Assembly (NCBI GenBank): GCA_017854775.1
Contig: JAFMHC010000004.1
Span: 1 to 50,662 of the forward strand
DNA from: Gammaproteobacteria bacterium
GTDB taxonomy: Bacteria > Pseudomonadota > Gammaproteobacteria > Arenicellales > Arenicellaceae
DNA length: 50,662 nucleotides
Direction: 5' to 3'
The position numbers and the translations under genes were made by a program. This document shows, one piece after another, positions 18,313 to 23,985 of this stretch. Each line of letters opens with the position of its first letter. The first letter of the stretch is position 1. The notes beneath the pieces are model-generated. The model did not search any database. It was not told where the DNA came from and saw only the letters and a list, made by a program, of their open reading frames with translations.

Positions 18313-20553
18313 ATGAGTATAAAATTTAATCTTCGATTGGCTGCTTTGCCTGGTTTGGTCGTTTTGACTGTCGGTTTGTTTTTAGTTTTCAGCTTTAGAT
18401 TGTTTATCGTTGGGCCGCCTGAAATTGCCGCTGGTCATGCCTTTCAAACTGACCGTGCGTTCTCACGGTTGGTTCGAATCTTGGCCGAGGAGTCTCCCCA
18501 TGCGGTTGATTCATTAGCCAATGATGGCGTGCGAGAACGATTACTCAGCGAGATTCGCTCGCTAGGTTTTAGCCCTATCGTTAGAGACGATTTTCATTGT
18601 AGCGAAGGCCGCAAGGCAATGCGTTGCGCCCGGGTTCGTAATGTAATGTTTTGGATTAACCAGCCGGGGCCGAATGCGGTAATGGTGGCCTCGCATTACG
18701 ACTCTGTACCAGCAGGCCCTGGTGCCGGGGATGACGGTGCGGGAGTTGCCGCGAGCCTTGAGATTGCTGCGCTCTTGAAAGATAAAGACTTAGCTCGCCC
18801 AGTGTTAGTACTGATTACCGATGGTGAAGAGATAGGCCTCGTCGGTGCCGCTTCATTTGTCGCTAAAGACCCTTTCGCGAAACTCGTTAGTGCCGTCGTA
18901 AGCATGGAAGCGCGAGGCGTAAGCGGGCCAGTGGCCATGTTTCAAACGAGCACACCGAACGGGCGTGATGTTAGCGCGCTTAAGTCAGATATAAAGACAG
19001 CTTCTAGTAATTCCCTCGCCAGCGATGTCTATGAGCGAATGCCAAACGGGACTGATGTTACTGAGTATCTAGCGCTAGATATAGACGTAGGTAACTTTGC
19101 CATTGGTGGCTCACCTGAGTTTTACCATACCTCGCGCGACAACCTTGCCATGTTGGACAAGCGTTCGTTCTTTCACATGGGCGCAAGTGCTTTTAATACG
19201 GTCGAAGCTTACCTAGAACAGTCCGGAGACGAGCCAGAGCAACAGTGGATTTACACTGACTTTTTGGGAGTTGTGGTACTTGCTTTACCTCAGTTATTTA
19301 GTATGCCGCTGATTGTGTTAGCCGGGTTTTTAACGTTGGCGGTGTTTTTCATTAAGGGAAGCGGTTCGCCAGTGCGCTCCCTAATGTTGCCGTTTGTGGC
19401 GATTGTTCTGGGGGTTGGTTTTGCACTTGCGATTACCATCGGGATTGATGCCGTTCGAGCGGAGGCACATTTTGCTGCGGCTCATCCATGGGCTCTGCGG
19501 GCAGCGCAGAACTCGGCCGCTTTGTTTGGCGCGCTGTTGGCAATATTGTTGCTTGGCAGGAGTGTCTCTAGGCGGCGCTTATTAATGTCTTCCTGGACAT
19601 GTCTGGCGCTGCTCGGCGGAGTTTTGAGTTTGTTCTTCGCTGGTGCTGCCATTTTGATTGTTCCGGCGTTGGTGGTGATGATCCTTTGTTGTTGTCTTAT
19701 CTTTATCAAAAAGGATACCGTTGCTGACCTATTGGCAATCGTCGCGTCGATTGTGTTTTTGGTAATTGTGGTGCCTATCTCAGCGCTAGGCGAAATGATG
19801 CTCTTCCTTGAGTATGCAGCACCGTTTACTATTTTTGTGGTTTTTTGTTTGCTGCTTATTGCGCCACATGTTTTACCGCGCGATGGATTTCAGCGTAAGT
19901 TTTCTTGGAAGCTGCCAATGGCGGGGCTAGGAGTAATTCTGTTTTTTACCCTAGCAGCTGCGATTGTGCCAGCGTATAGCGTCGATGCTCCGCGGGGCTT
20001 GTCGATCATACAGTTTACAGATGCTGACTCGGGCGAATCCCAATTCGGAGCGTTTGGTAAACAGCCTTTACCTAGCTCGATGACTGATGTCGCGCCATTC
20101 AAACGAGGCCTGATTATCGGCTTTGAAGACGCTGCTTATGTAGCTAAGGCGCCGAGCTTTGAAACCTTGGGAGTTGAGGTGATAATTGAAGGTGATGAGG
20201 TGGTTGCTGATCAGCGTTTGCTGACTATTCAAATTAACGCGGCAGACAGTGACATTGTTACCGCCCGCCTTGAGCCGAGAGACGCGATGGCTAAATCAAT
20301 GTCGATAAATGGGGTTGCTAAAAGTGATGCCGATACAAAACGTTTTCTTTGCCATGGGCGCGGCTGTCGATCAATAACGTTAAATCTAGCGGTAAGTATC
20401 CATGAGCCTGAATTAAACTTACAAGTGAATGGGTTCCGTTACGGCTTAGAAGAAGCGCAAGGCCTGAAGCTGTTGTCGTCGCGACCAGCAAGCGTGTTGG
20501 CGAGAGGTTGGGGTGACTTACGGCTTGTTTCTAGAACGATTAAATTGAAGTAA
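18313..20553 (+). CDS. Membrane-bound M28 family metallopeptidase
   Basis: This encodes 746 residues. An N-terminal membrane span (residues about 10-32) is followed by an M28 zinc aminopeptidase domain to about residue 300: ASHYDSVPAGPGAGDDGAGV with the first metal ligands His and Asp, LITDGEEIGLVGA with the catalytic and metal Glu pair, a SMEARG segment, and a final histidine near FYHTSRDN. Residues about 310-560 contain eight or so membrane segments, and a soluble C-terminal domain of about 190 residues completes it. This layout is that of the large membrane M28 exopeptidases related to eukaryotic Fxna/ERMP1. The peptidase domain should face the periplasm. It probably trims peptides, in line with the other peptide-degrading genes here. 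Confidence 0.88.
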   Translation: MSIKFNLRLAALPGLVVLTVGLFLVFSFRLFIVGPPEIAAGHAFQTDRAFSRLVRILAEESPHAVDSLANDGVRERLLSEIRSLGFSPIVRDDFHCSEGRKAMRCARVRNVMFWINQPGPNAVMVASHYDSVPAGPGAGDDGAGVAASLEIAALLKDKDLARPVLVLITDGEEIGLVGAASFVAKDPFAKLVSAVVSMEARGVSGPVAMFQTSTPNGRDVSALKSDIKTASSNSLASDVYERMPNGTDVTEYLALDIDVGNFAIGGSPEFYHTSRDNLAMLDKRSFFHMGASAFNTVEAYLEQSGDEPEQQWIYTDFLGVVVLALPQLFSMPLIVLAGFLTLAVFFIKGSGSPVRSLMLPFVAIVLGVGFALAITIGIDAVRAEAHFAAAHPWALRAAQNSAALFGALLAILLLGRSVSRRRLLMSSWTCLALLGGVLSLFFAGAAILIVPALVVMILCCCLIFIKKDTVADLLAIVASIVFLVIVVPISALGEMMLFLEYAAPFTIFVVFCLLLIAPHVLPRDGFQRKFSWKLPMAGLGVILFFTLAAAIVPAYSVDAPRGLSIIQFTDADSGESQFGAFGKQPLPSSMTDVAPFKRGLIIGFEDAAYVAKAPSFETLGVEVIIEGDEVVADQRLLTIQINAADSDIVTARLEPRDAMAKSMSINGVAKSDADTKRFLCHGRGCRSITLNLAVSIHEPELNLQVNGFRYGLEEAQGLKLLSSRPASVLARGWGDLRLVSRTIKLK

Positions 20554-20585
20554 GCGCGCGAGCGAGTTCCCCATTCGACTGATAT

Positions 20586-20630
20586 TTCTCGACTACTGAT
20601 ACTTCTCGACTATTGATACTTCTCGAGTAT
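20586..20630. repeat. 17-base tandem repeat, about three copies
   Basis: TTCTCGACTACTGATAC at 20586 is followed by TTCTCGACTATTGATAC at 20603 and a third partial copy starting TTCTCGAGTAT. A diverged partial copy precedes them. Confidence 0.75.
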
Positions 20631-20642
20631 AGCTTCATTACT

Positions 20643-20679
20643 AAAAAAGCAAATATGCTGCGACTCTTAAACGAGTCGC
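20643..20679 (-). terminator. Hairpin plus T-run, leftward
   Basis: Read leftward, GCGACTC-GTTTAA-GAGTCGC forms a seven-pair stem. A small AGCA-TATT-TGCT hairpin runs straight into TTTTTT. It can end the HMG-CoA reductase transcript or a short transcript from the SoxR-type promoter just upstream. Confidence 0.6.
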
Positions 20680-20724
20680 TGCGTTTTAAAGCCGGGGTTT
20701 GTTGTTGCTCAGTTGCTGGCTTAT
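20643..20724 (-). ncRNA. Candidate small RNA under SoxR-type promoter
   Basis: A leftward promoter overlapping a SoxR operator (20731-20761) would start transcription near 20724, and the hairpin with T-run would end it near 20643. That gives about 80 bases with no good coding frame before the terminator. It lies in the 3' flank of HMG-CoA reductase on the same strand. No RNA family is recognised. The existence of the transcript is inferred from the operator, the promoter spacing and the terminator only. Confidence 0.3.
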
Positions 20725-20730
20725 GGCTAG

Positions 20731-20761
20731 ACTTTAATGCCTCAAGTTAACTTGAGGTTAA
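20731..20761 (-). promoter_or_regulatory. SoxR operator and overlapping leftward promoter
   Basis: CCTCAAGTTAACTTGAGG at 20740-20757 is a perfect 18-base palindrome identical to the SoxR site in the E. coli soxS promoter. Read leftward, it sits between TTAACC (-35) and TAAAGT (-10) with a 19-base spacer, the same arrangement as soxS (TTTACC, 19 bases, TATACT). MerR-family activators such as SoxR need this long spacer. The rightward strand lacks an equally good pair. Confidence 0.75.
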
Positions 20762-20853
20762 GTATAAAGGTAATCGGATTTTATCGATATTGAAGTACTT
20801 TAGTTACAATATTCAGTCATTTCATCAACGTCTTAGTCGCTTAGTCGGCTAAC

Positions 20854-22029
20854 CTACGGTCGATTGCGGCCCAGCTTATCGTGGCTCGAAACCCAATCGC
20901 CAGCTAGCACCGCTGAGCCAAGAGATATCTCGCCGGCTAATACAGTTGCCGCGCATATCTCCGCCAGTTTTAATGCTTTGCCGTTGCCATAACAGTCCAT
21001 TATCTCTAGGCATTCGCGTTGACTACCTAAGCCGGTGCCGCCGCCGTAGCTGGCAACAATGACCGAAGGCAGTGTGATGCTCCAGTAAAGGTCACCGTTT
21101 TCCATCAAGTCAGAATATACGATCGCCGCCTGTGATTCGGCAATGTTAGCCGCGTCTTGGCCTGTAGCGATAAAGATAGCGGCTAAGCCGTTAGCGGAAT
21201 GCGCGCCATTGTTGCTAGTACCAGCGAGCATGCCGCCTACATTATTAACTTGCCGAGCATCGAATAAGGCTTTGGTATCAACACGCAAGAGTTTTAAGGC
21301 CACGTCTCGGGGTAATACGGCTTCAGCAACGACACGCGTACCCCTAGAGTGCAGTGTGTTTAACTGTGAGTGCTTTTTATCGGTATCAATTGCGCCTGAC
21401 AAGGTATAGCGGTTTAGCTTTGGGTAGTTTTCAGCAATCCAATTACAGGCGGCGAAAGTGGCCTTACCGCACATGTTCTGCCCTGCGGCATCGCCGGTGG
21501 TGTAATTGAATCGCACGAAGCGCATGCGAGATACACCATATTGTTCTACGTGTGACAGCTTGCCGATTGAGGTTGTTGCTTCAGCGATTTGACGAATAGT
21601 GTCTATATTTTCGTCAAACCAAATGCCAAAATCTCGCGCATCTTGTGCGTTGTCAAAATGGAATACTGGCGCACGCTGCATATATCGTTCGATAACAGTG
21701 GTTTTCACCCCACCGATTTCTGATAACACACGCATACCTCGGCTATAACTTGCCACCAAAGTGCCTTCAGTGGTCGCCATAGGCACGTAAAAGTCACCAT
21801 TTGCATGCTCGCCGTTAATACGCACCGGGCCGGCCAAACCAATCGGCACTTGCGCTACCCCAATCGGGTTCTCAATATTACCCATGAGGCTTTTCAGGTC
21901 TTGCGACGAATGCGCTACGTGCTTCAATTCCACACCGGTTTTTTCGGCAATGAAACGCTGTCGTTGTGCGATAGCCTCGGCTGAATAATTATCTTCCAAG
22001 CGCGGTATCTTTTTGTCAGAATCGATCAT
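20854..22029 (-). CDS. HMG-CoA reductase
   Basis: This encodes 391 residues. It reduces HMG-CoA to mevalonate, the committed step of the mevalonate route to isoprenoids. Visible marks: ENPIGVAQVPIGLAGPVR (residues 53-70), the catalytic glutamate E88 in TTEGTLVAS, GDAAGQNM at 179-186 (dinucleotide site), the aspartate in ATGQDAANIAES, YGGGTGLGSQRE, and H383 in SSHDKLGRNRP near the C terminus. The pattern is of the class I type catalytic domain without its membrane part. Most gammaproteobacteria use the methylerythritol route, so this gene is unusual and possibly acquired. It starts nine bases after the redoxin/monooxygenase gene and is probably co-transcribed with it. No other mevalonate gene is in the window. 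Confidence 0.93.
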   Translation of the reverse strand: MIDSDKKIPRLEDNYSAEAIAQRQRFIAEKTGVELKHVAHSSQDLKSLMGNIENPIGVAQVPIGLAGPVRINGEHANGDFYVPMATTEGTLVASYSRGMRVLSEIGGVKTTVIERYMQRAPVFHFDNAQDARDFGIWFDENIDTIRQIAEATTSIGKLSHVEQYGVSRMRFVRFNYTTGDAAGQNMCGKATFAACNWIAENYPKLNRYTLSGAIDTDKKHSQLNTLHSRGTRVVAEAVLPRDVALKLLRVDTKALFDARQVNNVGGMLAGTSNNGAHSANGLAAIFIATGQDAANIAESQAAIVYSDLMENGDLYWSITLPSVIVASYGGGTGLGSQRECLEIMDCYGNGKALKLAEICAATVLAGEISLGSAVLAGDWVSSHDKLGRNRP

Positions 22030-22038
22030 ACACCGCCT

Positions 22039-23985
22039 CTATTGTTGCCGTTGTTTGCGAATTGTTTGTAGCATTCCACCTAGTTCTTGTAGGTCTAATA
22101 GGCCATCTTTACTGGTATCAAATTGATCAAAGTTGTCACCTACTGCCCGAGTCAGGCCGTTAGTCAGTTCCGATTTTGCGACCTTGCCGTCAAAATTATA
22201 GTCCATTAAACCCTGCATTTGAAACAAGTCCGCTCGACCACGGTCATGAATGGGTTTGTCGGTGGTTTCATCAACCCAGCTGTAACCGACTGAGCCATAA
22301 AGCATCTCTTGCTCTGACTGCAAACCCCAATAGACAATTTCGCCTGGCGCCGGATTGCCACGGTTTTTGGCAGAATTATTGTAGATGGTTCGATGAACCA
22401 CTTTGCTGCCGGCAGGTACAGGTTTTGGTTCGGTAAATTGATAAGTGCGCTGCCAGTTAAAGTCATAGTTAGGTACTGACAGGATGGTTTCAACTTTGCC
22501 ATCAGGATATTGAATTTCAAAGGTAGAGCTTACACCACGATAATGCGAGTGCGGAAATAGCGCGTGGATTTCAGCGTCTTTATCAAACATGAAATAGGCT
22601 TTCTCTTCATGTTGCTCAGCATTAGCCGGAATCGCCAGTTCAAAATTAACGATAACCTGTTCGCGATAAAAATTCGCCGGTGGTTTGTCGGAAAAATGTA
22701 AGCCGATTCGGCTGCGGTCTACGGCTTTCTTACCATAGGGTGTGTAATGCATTTGAAATTGGTACACGCCGCCTTTGGGTACAAATACACCAGTACCGGC
22801 AGGCATTGATGATGCTTCGTTACCTGGTGCGTAGGTGATAATAAAGTTTTCAAAAATTTCTGATAAACGGCCTTGCGGTTGCTTTGCTGAAGAGCCGGCT
22901 AGAATATGGTGTACCGCTTTAGGGTCTCCGGGTATCACTTCGGCAGCAACAACCCAAACATCTCTATCGTAAGGGTTTGGAACATTGGGAAACTGATAAT
23001 CTACTGTGCCTGTGGCGGGTATTTCAAATGCTGGAATGTCGATGATTAGGTCAGGTTCACCTAAAGTCCATAGGTTTTCAAGTGGCTGTATTTGCTTTAG
23101 TGGGTCATCTCCTTCACCACGAGGTGCGCCAGCTTCGATCCACGCAATCAGTGTTTTATTATCTTGGTCACTCATGCCGACATCATTGCGCCAATGGCCA
23201 ATTTCAGGGTCGGCGTGCCACGGCGGCATGCGCTTAGTTCGCACAACTTCACGAATCATAGGGGCAAAGCCTTTGATCATGGCGTATTCAGACATGGCCC
23301 ACGGTGCGATACCACCTTGTACGTGGCAAGCCACGCAATTCTCTTTGAGGATTGGTGCAATGGTCTCACTGTAGCTAATCTTAGCTGGGTCGATATCGTC
23401 GTAATTGATTATGCAGCCCGGCGCGTTAACGGTGCTCGGAGTCACTTTTTTACCAGCGATAAGTGCATCAAGCGTATCGCGCACGTAGCGCTTATCGGCT
23501 TTATTTTTTTGACGTTCAAAGTCGACTCGGTCACTGAGCGGGCCGCGATACACTACCTGCCAGTTTCTTGGATCAATGACCAACACTTCACCGGTTCGAC
23601 TTAGCTTTAAAGAGCGCGCGACGATTTGGGTGCGATCTTTCATTATCGCGAAGTCGTTCCCCCATTCTTCCGCTTCGGCCACGATTGTTGCACGGCTGTC
23701 TTGCAAATTGGCGTTCAACATCAGAATTTCAACGCCTTGGTTAGCGTAGTCTTTGCGAATTGCTTTTAGGTCTTCCAAGTTAGATCTAACGATCTGACAA
23801 CCATTTCCTTGAGCGACAATAACAACGGCTTTATCGTCGCTATGGTAGTACAGTTCTTGGGCTTTGCCTTGGTGATCGATGAGTACGAAGTTATCGGCGG
23901 TTAGTGTGTCAGCCGCGGCGGCGCTTGATAAGAGTAATAGAGCTAGGCTCAGCAATAGACTGGACCGGATATAGTTGATAGACAC
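22039..23985 (-). CDS. Redoxin / cytochrome c / copper monooxygenase / EF-hand fusion, exported
   Basis: This encodes 648 residues from a GTG preceded by AGGAGA. Domains in order: signal peptide (SLLLSLALLLLSSAAAA); an AhpC/TSA-like redoxin domain to about residue 190, with CQIV at the resolving position and no CxxC pair; a haem c domain with CVACH and a likely axial methionine in RMPPWHAD; a copper type II ascorbate-dependent monooxygenase-like region (AVHHILAG, FQMHYTPYG, HSHYRG giving the copper histidines); and two EF-hand calcium loops at the C terminus (DYNFDGKVAKSEL, DTSKDGLLDLQEL). Such multidomain periplasmic proteins occur in several environmental phyla; substrates are unknown. It sits directly before HMG-CoA reductase, suggesting a shared operon. 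Confidence 0.88.
   Translation of the reverse strand: MSINYIRSSLLLSLALLLLSSAAAADTLTADNFVLIDHQGKAQELYYHSDDKAVVIVAQGNGCQIVRSNLEDLKAIRKDYANQGVEILMLNANLQDSRATIVAEAEEWGNDFAIMKDRTQIVARSLKLSRTGEVLVIDPRNWQVVYRGPLSDRVDFERQKNKADKRYVRDTLDALIAGKKVTPSTVNAPGCIINYDDIDPAKISYSETIAPILKENCVACHVQGGIAPWAMSEYAMIKGFAPMIREVVRTKRMPPWHADPEIGHWRNDVGMSDQDNKTLIAWIEAGAPRGEGDDPLKQIQPLENLWTLGEPDLIIDIPAFEIPATGTVDYQFPNVPNPYDRDVWVVAAEVIPGDPKAVHHILAGSSAKQPQGRLSEIFENFIITYAPGNEASSMPAGTGVFVPKGGVYQFQMHYTPYGKKAVDRSRIGLHFSDKPPANFYREQVIVNFELAIPANAEQHEEKAYFMFDKDAEIHALFPHSHYRGVSSTFEIQYPDGKVETILSVPNYDFNWQRTYQFTEPKPVPAGSKVVHRTIYNNSAKNRGNPAPGEIVYWGLQSEQEMLYGSVGYSWVDETTDKPIHDRGRADLFQMQGLMDYNFDGKVAKSELTNGLTRAVGDNFDQFDTSKDGLLDLQELGGMLQTIRKQRQQ

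Follow-up and report, generated by a model that had tools for sequence, protein, structure and literature searches.

What does a SoxR operator do in a short gap between two convergent genes, with no evident target gene in front of it? We analysed a window of 50,662 nucleotides (bases 1-50662 of contig C180) from an assembly of 4.86 Mb in 381 contigs, with an estimated completeness of 92.7% and contamination of 4.2%. The HMG-CoA reductase encoded in the window is 85-91% identical to four uncultured Arenicella records; the fifth match is Spongiibacter, at 53%. Because of the 85-91% identity, we assign the organism, a marine bacterium, to Arenicella or its close kin. The convergent genes for an M28 peptidase and HMG-CoA reductase leave a gap of 300 bases (20554-20853) that contains the site (Table 1). 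This is the 3' flank of the reductase gene, where a sequence-only reading of the window had placed it and had proposed a short SoxR-activated RNA as the simplest explanation.

Table 1. Features of the site and its flanks (coordinates in the window)
Feature	Position	Strand	Remarks
SoxR operator CCTCAAGTTAACTTGAGG, perfect palindrome	20740..20757		18/18 identity to E. coli soxS operator
-35 element TTAACC	20756..20761	-	read from sequence; flank matrix
-10 element TAAAGT	20731..20736	-	19-base spacer from -35; flank matrix
Predicted 82-nt RNA	20643..20724	-	putative start ~7 bases past -10; putative end at T6; no reading frame
7-bp G+C-rich hairpin GCGACTC/GAGTCGC	20660..20679		+ strand: terminator-like for peptidase gene; leftward: part of the predicted RNA's terminator-like 3' end
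4-bp stem AGCA/TGCT + T6 run (T6 at 20648-20643)	20643..20659	-	
HMG-CoA reductase gene	20854..22029	-	PF00368, 407.5 bits; same strand as site, upstream
M28-family peptidase gene	18313..20553	+	PF04389, 118.2 bits; convergent

We found that the operator is an exact copy of a characterised one. In E. coli K-12 the 18 bases of 20740-20757 recur unchanged in the soxR-soxS intergenic region (L101), so the earlier identification of the site with the soxS operator was correct at every base. These 18 bases are also the published E. coli SoxR box (excerpt of PMC4411124). In SoxR target promoters, including that of mfsA in S. maltophilia, the operator lies between -35 and -10 elements with a 19-base spacer (PMC4411124, in excerpt), and S. 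coelicolor SoxR promoters have been aligned with soxS (PMC4146615, in excerpt). The site has the geometry of SoxR-dependent promoters: read leftward, the operator is inside the over-long spacer of TTAACC-19-TAAAGT. No other position in the window matches the operator with three or fewer mismatches (0.03 expected), and the second-best match has five. Exact copies of the 18-mer are expected by chance at 5e-5 per 4.86 Mb.

The sequence around the operator also resembles that of SoxR promoters, in one direction. We aligned 12 promoters from congeners and built a matrix from the bases outside the operator only. The site scored 9.1 leftward and -28.7 rightward, against a window background of -21.5 +/- 7.8, and a score of at least 9.1 was reached at 7 of 101,244 window positions, counting the site itself. 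Because of these scores, the direction and geometry of the site are not a product of chance, and the leftward promoter with a 19-base spacer described in the sequence-only reading is upheld in that orientation alone. For comparison, E. coli soxS scored 12.1, and the 12 congener promoters, each left out of the matrix in turn, scored 16.2-22.6. The flanks of the site thus match the matrix less closely than do the congeners' own flanks. The -10 hexamer, TAAAGT, is shared with a promoter of the congener G005, which precedes a gene for a VOC-type protein (see below). We conclude that the SoxR-type promoter is real as a sequence and that SoxR is its likely regulator.

Elsewhere in the organism's genome there was little sign of further sites. 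The 16-base core of the operator has one exact occurrence in the whole assembly. With up to three mismatches it was found at 26 places, compared to 20 for a reversed control, and therefore weaker sites are not in clear excess.

SoxR itself is common in the genus. With a SoxR protein from a congener as query, orthologues were found in 14 of 17 same-genus genomes (E <= 4e-36), the one in G005 being incomplete at the end of its contig. G003, G004 and G014, as well as the organism's own genome, gave weak matches only (best E 1.9e-9); two of these three congeners without soxR are 99% complete. Two orthologues that were typed scored 184.9 and 163.6 bits against TIGR01950 (cut-off 116.9), and the best solved-structure match of the congener SoxR was 2zhg (E 1.9e-35), a SoxR that we take to be the E. 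coli protein. The motif CIGCGCLS was present in 12/12 SoxR frames in the 12 congener stretches that were read.

The congener operators adjoin soxR. A small VOC-type protein, whose G008 member belongs to the Glyoxalase/VOC families, occurs in the same 14 genomes as SoxR, and its gene is divergent from soxR in all 14, across intergenic gaps of 88-251 bases (e.g., L007:1018-1961 and L012:1035-1965). In 12 of the 14, an operator with at most four mismatches to the E. coli 18-mer lies between the two genes. In G001 and G007 (L039 and L037) the best match has five mismatches and both outer arms are changed, from CTCAA/TTGAG to CTAAA/TTTAG. This paired change may indicate a shifted SoxR recognition sequence. 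Within the genus, SoxR thus appears to have the VOC/glyoxalase-type gene as its main target; among the open-licence papers listed, nothing obvious linked SoxR to a glyoxalase. The exact 16-base core is present in 11 of 21 family genomes, including the organism's own. G013 has a second exact core, away from soxR at a contig end (L035:1501-1627, in G013:C274), which scored 5.0 with the flank matrix. The frame beside it is preceded by AAGGAGG, which resembles a ribosome-binding site, and is truncated by the contig end.

A soxR gene in the genome had been named as a check on the proposal, and here the outcome was divided: no SoxR orthologue was found in the assembly, but 14 of 17 congeners have one, and the block in which several of them carry it falls between two contig ends. 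The assembly contains four weaker matches to the SoxR model. Three of them were typed: all scored below the curated cut-offs of the MerR-type models, and the SoxR cysteine motif is missing from the translated sequences. The VOC partner and a PepSY protein were also not found in this genome, nor were DUF4389 and a presumably enolase-type gene, in searches run without a positive-control genome for these last two.

The genes at both edges of the soxR block are present, each at the end of a contig. On one side is C22:709-1317, presumably hemolysin III-like, followed by the gene C22:94-663 at the start of C22 (L104). On the other side is C250:8989-11232, presumably alpha-galactosidase-like, at the end of C250 (L105), a contig of 11,318 bases. 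Both edge genes surround soxR in 5 of 12 congener stretches (G006, G009, G013, G016 and G017); G001, G010 and G015 have a single edge or an altered order, and in G002, G008, G011 and G012 the soxR neighbours are largely different. We compared the ends of C250 and C22 with four of the five stretches (G006, G016, G009 and G017). Between the edges, 6.8-7.3 kb in these four, the genes have no match at the contig ends. Outside the edges the genes match in order, except for single genes (4691 and 18604 of L093, 19516 of L094 and 19063 of L088). We read the absence of soxR as an assembly gap because C250 and C22 stop at the two edges of the block. Two contig ends at one block are best explained if the piece with the soxR-VOC block was lost in assembly or binning, and the organism probably has SoxR. 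If so, the site would be a second target promoter besides soxR-VOC. A true deletion, or a soxR at another unassembled place, is possible; loss of the gene had been our initial preference and was set back once both flanks of the block proved to be contig ends.

We found no gene for the promoter to drive, in agreement with the sequence-only reading. The 82 bases between 20724 and 20643 contain no reading frame; their lone start codon, a TTG, falls within the terminator, and on this ground we rejected a hidden small gene there. A 32-aa frame (20540-20638) is situated beyond the T-run. A SoxR-type promoter usually has a target protein gene downstream; here no frame precedes the terminator. A protein gene in that position is usual, yet SoxR does not need one for binding.

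The stretch does have features of a small-RNA gene: its own promoter, a terminator-like end within ~50-300 bases, and no frame. The predicted RNA folds, in order, into a 5' stem, the 7-bp stem, the 4-bp stem and U6, with a minimum free energy of -20.6 kcal/mol (z -3.09 relative to shuffled sequences). A 7-bp G+C-rich stem followed by T6 within 15 bases was found at two places in both strands of the window (three matches, two of them at one place). The hairpin and T-run reported earlier within about 80 bases of the promoter are both present, but they are 11 bases apart, with the 4-bp stem between them. The leftward terminator is atypical in that T6 follows a 4-bp stem, and it was not called by a consensus terminator scan. 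That scan, of 20000-21500, made one call (1.7 expected by shuffling), on the + strand, which is the strand of the peptidase gene. On the + strand the hairpin has a z of -5.0 and is directly followed by UUUU, although this value, for 36 bases, is not strictly comparable with that of the 82-base RNA. The hairpin may simply terminate the peptidase mRNA. The interval from the stop codon of the peptidase gene to the hairpin contains a 17-base tandem repeat (2.9 copies, 20578-20626).

Searches for relatives or partners of the predicted RNA gave nothing. There were no Rfam matches in 20400-21000 at E values up to 5. When the 5' 45 bases of the RNA were scanned for duplexes with 45 start regions on the contig, 7 of 100 shuffles did as well as the RNA, which is not significant. 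A run resembling the Hfq-binding pattern (ARN)3 was rejected as evidence; such runs occur in 433 of 2468 82-base pieces of the window.

Our leading interpretation is that a real SoxR-activated promoter drives a short non-coding RNA, an account that we hold tentatively, at somewhat less than even odds; a promoter that has lost its gene is a close rival. In the proposed mechanism, SoxR, its gene probably in the unassembled soxR-VOC block, would occupy the operator in the 19-base spacer. A redox-cycling compound would oxidise the [2Fe-2S] cluster of SoxR, the DNA would be distorted, and RNA polymerase would start near 20724. Transcription would proceed leftward for ~82 bases, meet no frame, and end near 20643, where the hairpins and U6 are. 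Such an RNA could act in trans, or by base-pairing with the convergent peptidase mRNA, whose 3' end it overlaps. The more specific proposal, that it is a regulatory small RNA transcribed directly from this SoxR promoter 3' of the HMG-CoA reductase gene, and a post-transcriptional arm of a non-enteric SoxR regulon, as OxyS is for OxyR, is less likely than not. The original suggestion of a short SoxR-activated RNA therefore survives in part: the SoxR-type promoter is aimed at a short, terminated stretch with no gene, but the hairpin may serve the peptidase gene as its terminator.

It is also quite possible, if we would not bet on it, that the operator once had a SoxR-controlled gene on its left, since deleted or exchanged for other DNA, for instance when the peptidase segment arrived, so that the intact promoter would now yield at most a meaningless short transcript ending at the peptidase terminator. 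This fits the facts nearly as well as the short RNA, which leads. The gene 3' of HMG-CoA reductase differs among the window, L076, L078 and L080, which indicates that the place rearranges, and the convergent peptidase gene accounts for the hairpin. In addition, the SoxR-type site of G013 that is away from soxR fronts an ordinary-looking frame (L035). On the other hand, the operator, -35 and -10 are all intact, so the gene must have been lost recently or selection must have continued. With 12 SoxR and 11 VOC proteins as queries, the two families searched for, no coding remnant above chance level was found in 20301-21000. The best match (E 0.034) reads through the palindrome because the SoxR frame concerned is over-extended upstream. 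We also considered shared ancestry through a presumably DUF885-type gene found near soxR in G008 and near HMG-CoA reductase in the window, and rejected it (the two are 33% identical).

Comparison with relatives, which the sequence-only reading had suggested as a check, did not bear out conservation of the site and hairpin, and the absence of the site from these flanks is in keeping with a promoter that has lost its gene. In 800 bases 3' of HMG-CoA reductase in each of five relatives (L076, L078, L080, G008 and G011), the best operator matches had 7-8 mismatches; in L077 the contig ends at the reductase gene. When 20560-20860 (301 bases) was compared with 109 genomes of the order, at most six candidates being scored in each, neither the site nor the RNA turned up outside the organism's own genome; the only matches elsewhere were operator-centred, 29-40 bases long, in seven genomes. 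With 20560-20900 and all candidates scored in 18 genomes of the genus, the extra matches were to the end of the HMG-CoA reductase gene only. As far as the compared genomes show, the feature appears to be private to the species.

A third explanation, which we consider improbable, is antisense or interfering transcription: under redox stress SoxR would drive transcription leftward into the peptidase gene from its 3' end, and this, not a free small RNA, would be what matters. The layout is convergent, the predicted RNA would be antisense to the peptidase mRNA at its 3' end, and of the two terminators the leftward one is the less regular. However, the stems and T6 run come before the peptidase stop codon is reached, and no conservation was seen in the 109-genome search (at most six candidates scored per genome). 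In S. coelicolor, a SoxR-linked transcript antisense to an annotated gene was traced to a mis-annotated frame (excerpt of PMC4146615). We rejected mis-annotation of the peptidase: opposite-strand frames beneath it are no longer than 80 aa, and its own Pfam assignment is clear.

Another MerR-family regulator might act at the site in place of SoxR, and the four weaker SoxR-model matches in the genome are in its favour; the three that were typed are below MerR-type cut-offs and lack the cysteine motif, and operators of the same type adjoin soxR in congeners, which makes this very unlikely. Chance is barely credible as an origin, since we found nothing in its favour, the 18-mer is expected far less than once per genome by the figure given above, and the flanks match independently of the operator.

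We compared the site with known systems. The promoter of E. coli soxS has the same operator, but it and the promoters of S. coelicolor and of S. maltophilia mfsA drive protein genes, whereas here no frame precedes the terminator. The divergent soxR-VOC promoter of Arenicella is of the same operator type, -35/-10 layout and polarity; its operator is between soxR and the VOC gene, in contrast to that of the site, between two convergent genes. Small RNAs of the MicL/DapZ type resemble the predicted RNA in that a gene carries at its 3' end a promoter from which a short RNA is independently initiated (excerpt of PMC9438474). Those promoters are inside coding sequence, whereas that of the site is 96 bases past the stop codon and would have SoxR as activator. 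OxyS and the SoxR-dependent MicF are small RNAs that serve as a regulatory arm in oxidative stress (PMC2064960 and PMC8784731, both in excerpt); the sensor for OxyS is OxyR, unlike the putative SoxR here. The likeness that we draw to OxyS and MicF is one of regulatory logic and not of sequence. MicF, MicC and RydB of E. coli were reported to be SoxR-dependent, an effect ascribed to SoxS (PMC2064960, in excerpt).

Among the open-licence papers listed, and in excerpts of some of them, we recognised no report of a small RNA that a SoxR promoter produces directly, and a term search of the main text of a review of small RNAs from mRNA 3' ends (PMC9438474) did not return the word SoxR. Non-enteric SoxR is described as a direct activator of small sets of genes (excerpt of PMC8784731). 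A SoxR promoter aimed at a non-coding RNA, if that is what the site is, would add RNA control to such a regulon. If the promoter is only orphaned, it shows that a perfect SoxR site can outlast its target. On the far side of the HMG-CoA reductase gene, the adjoining gene (22039-23985) encodes a protein that has an AhpC/redoxin-type domain at its N-terminus and matches EF-hand models weakly.
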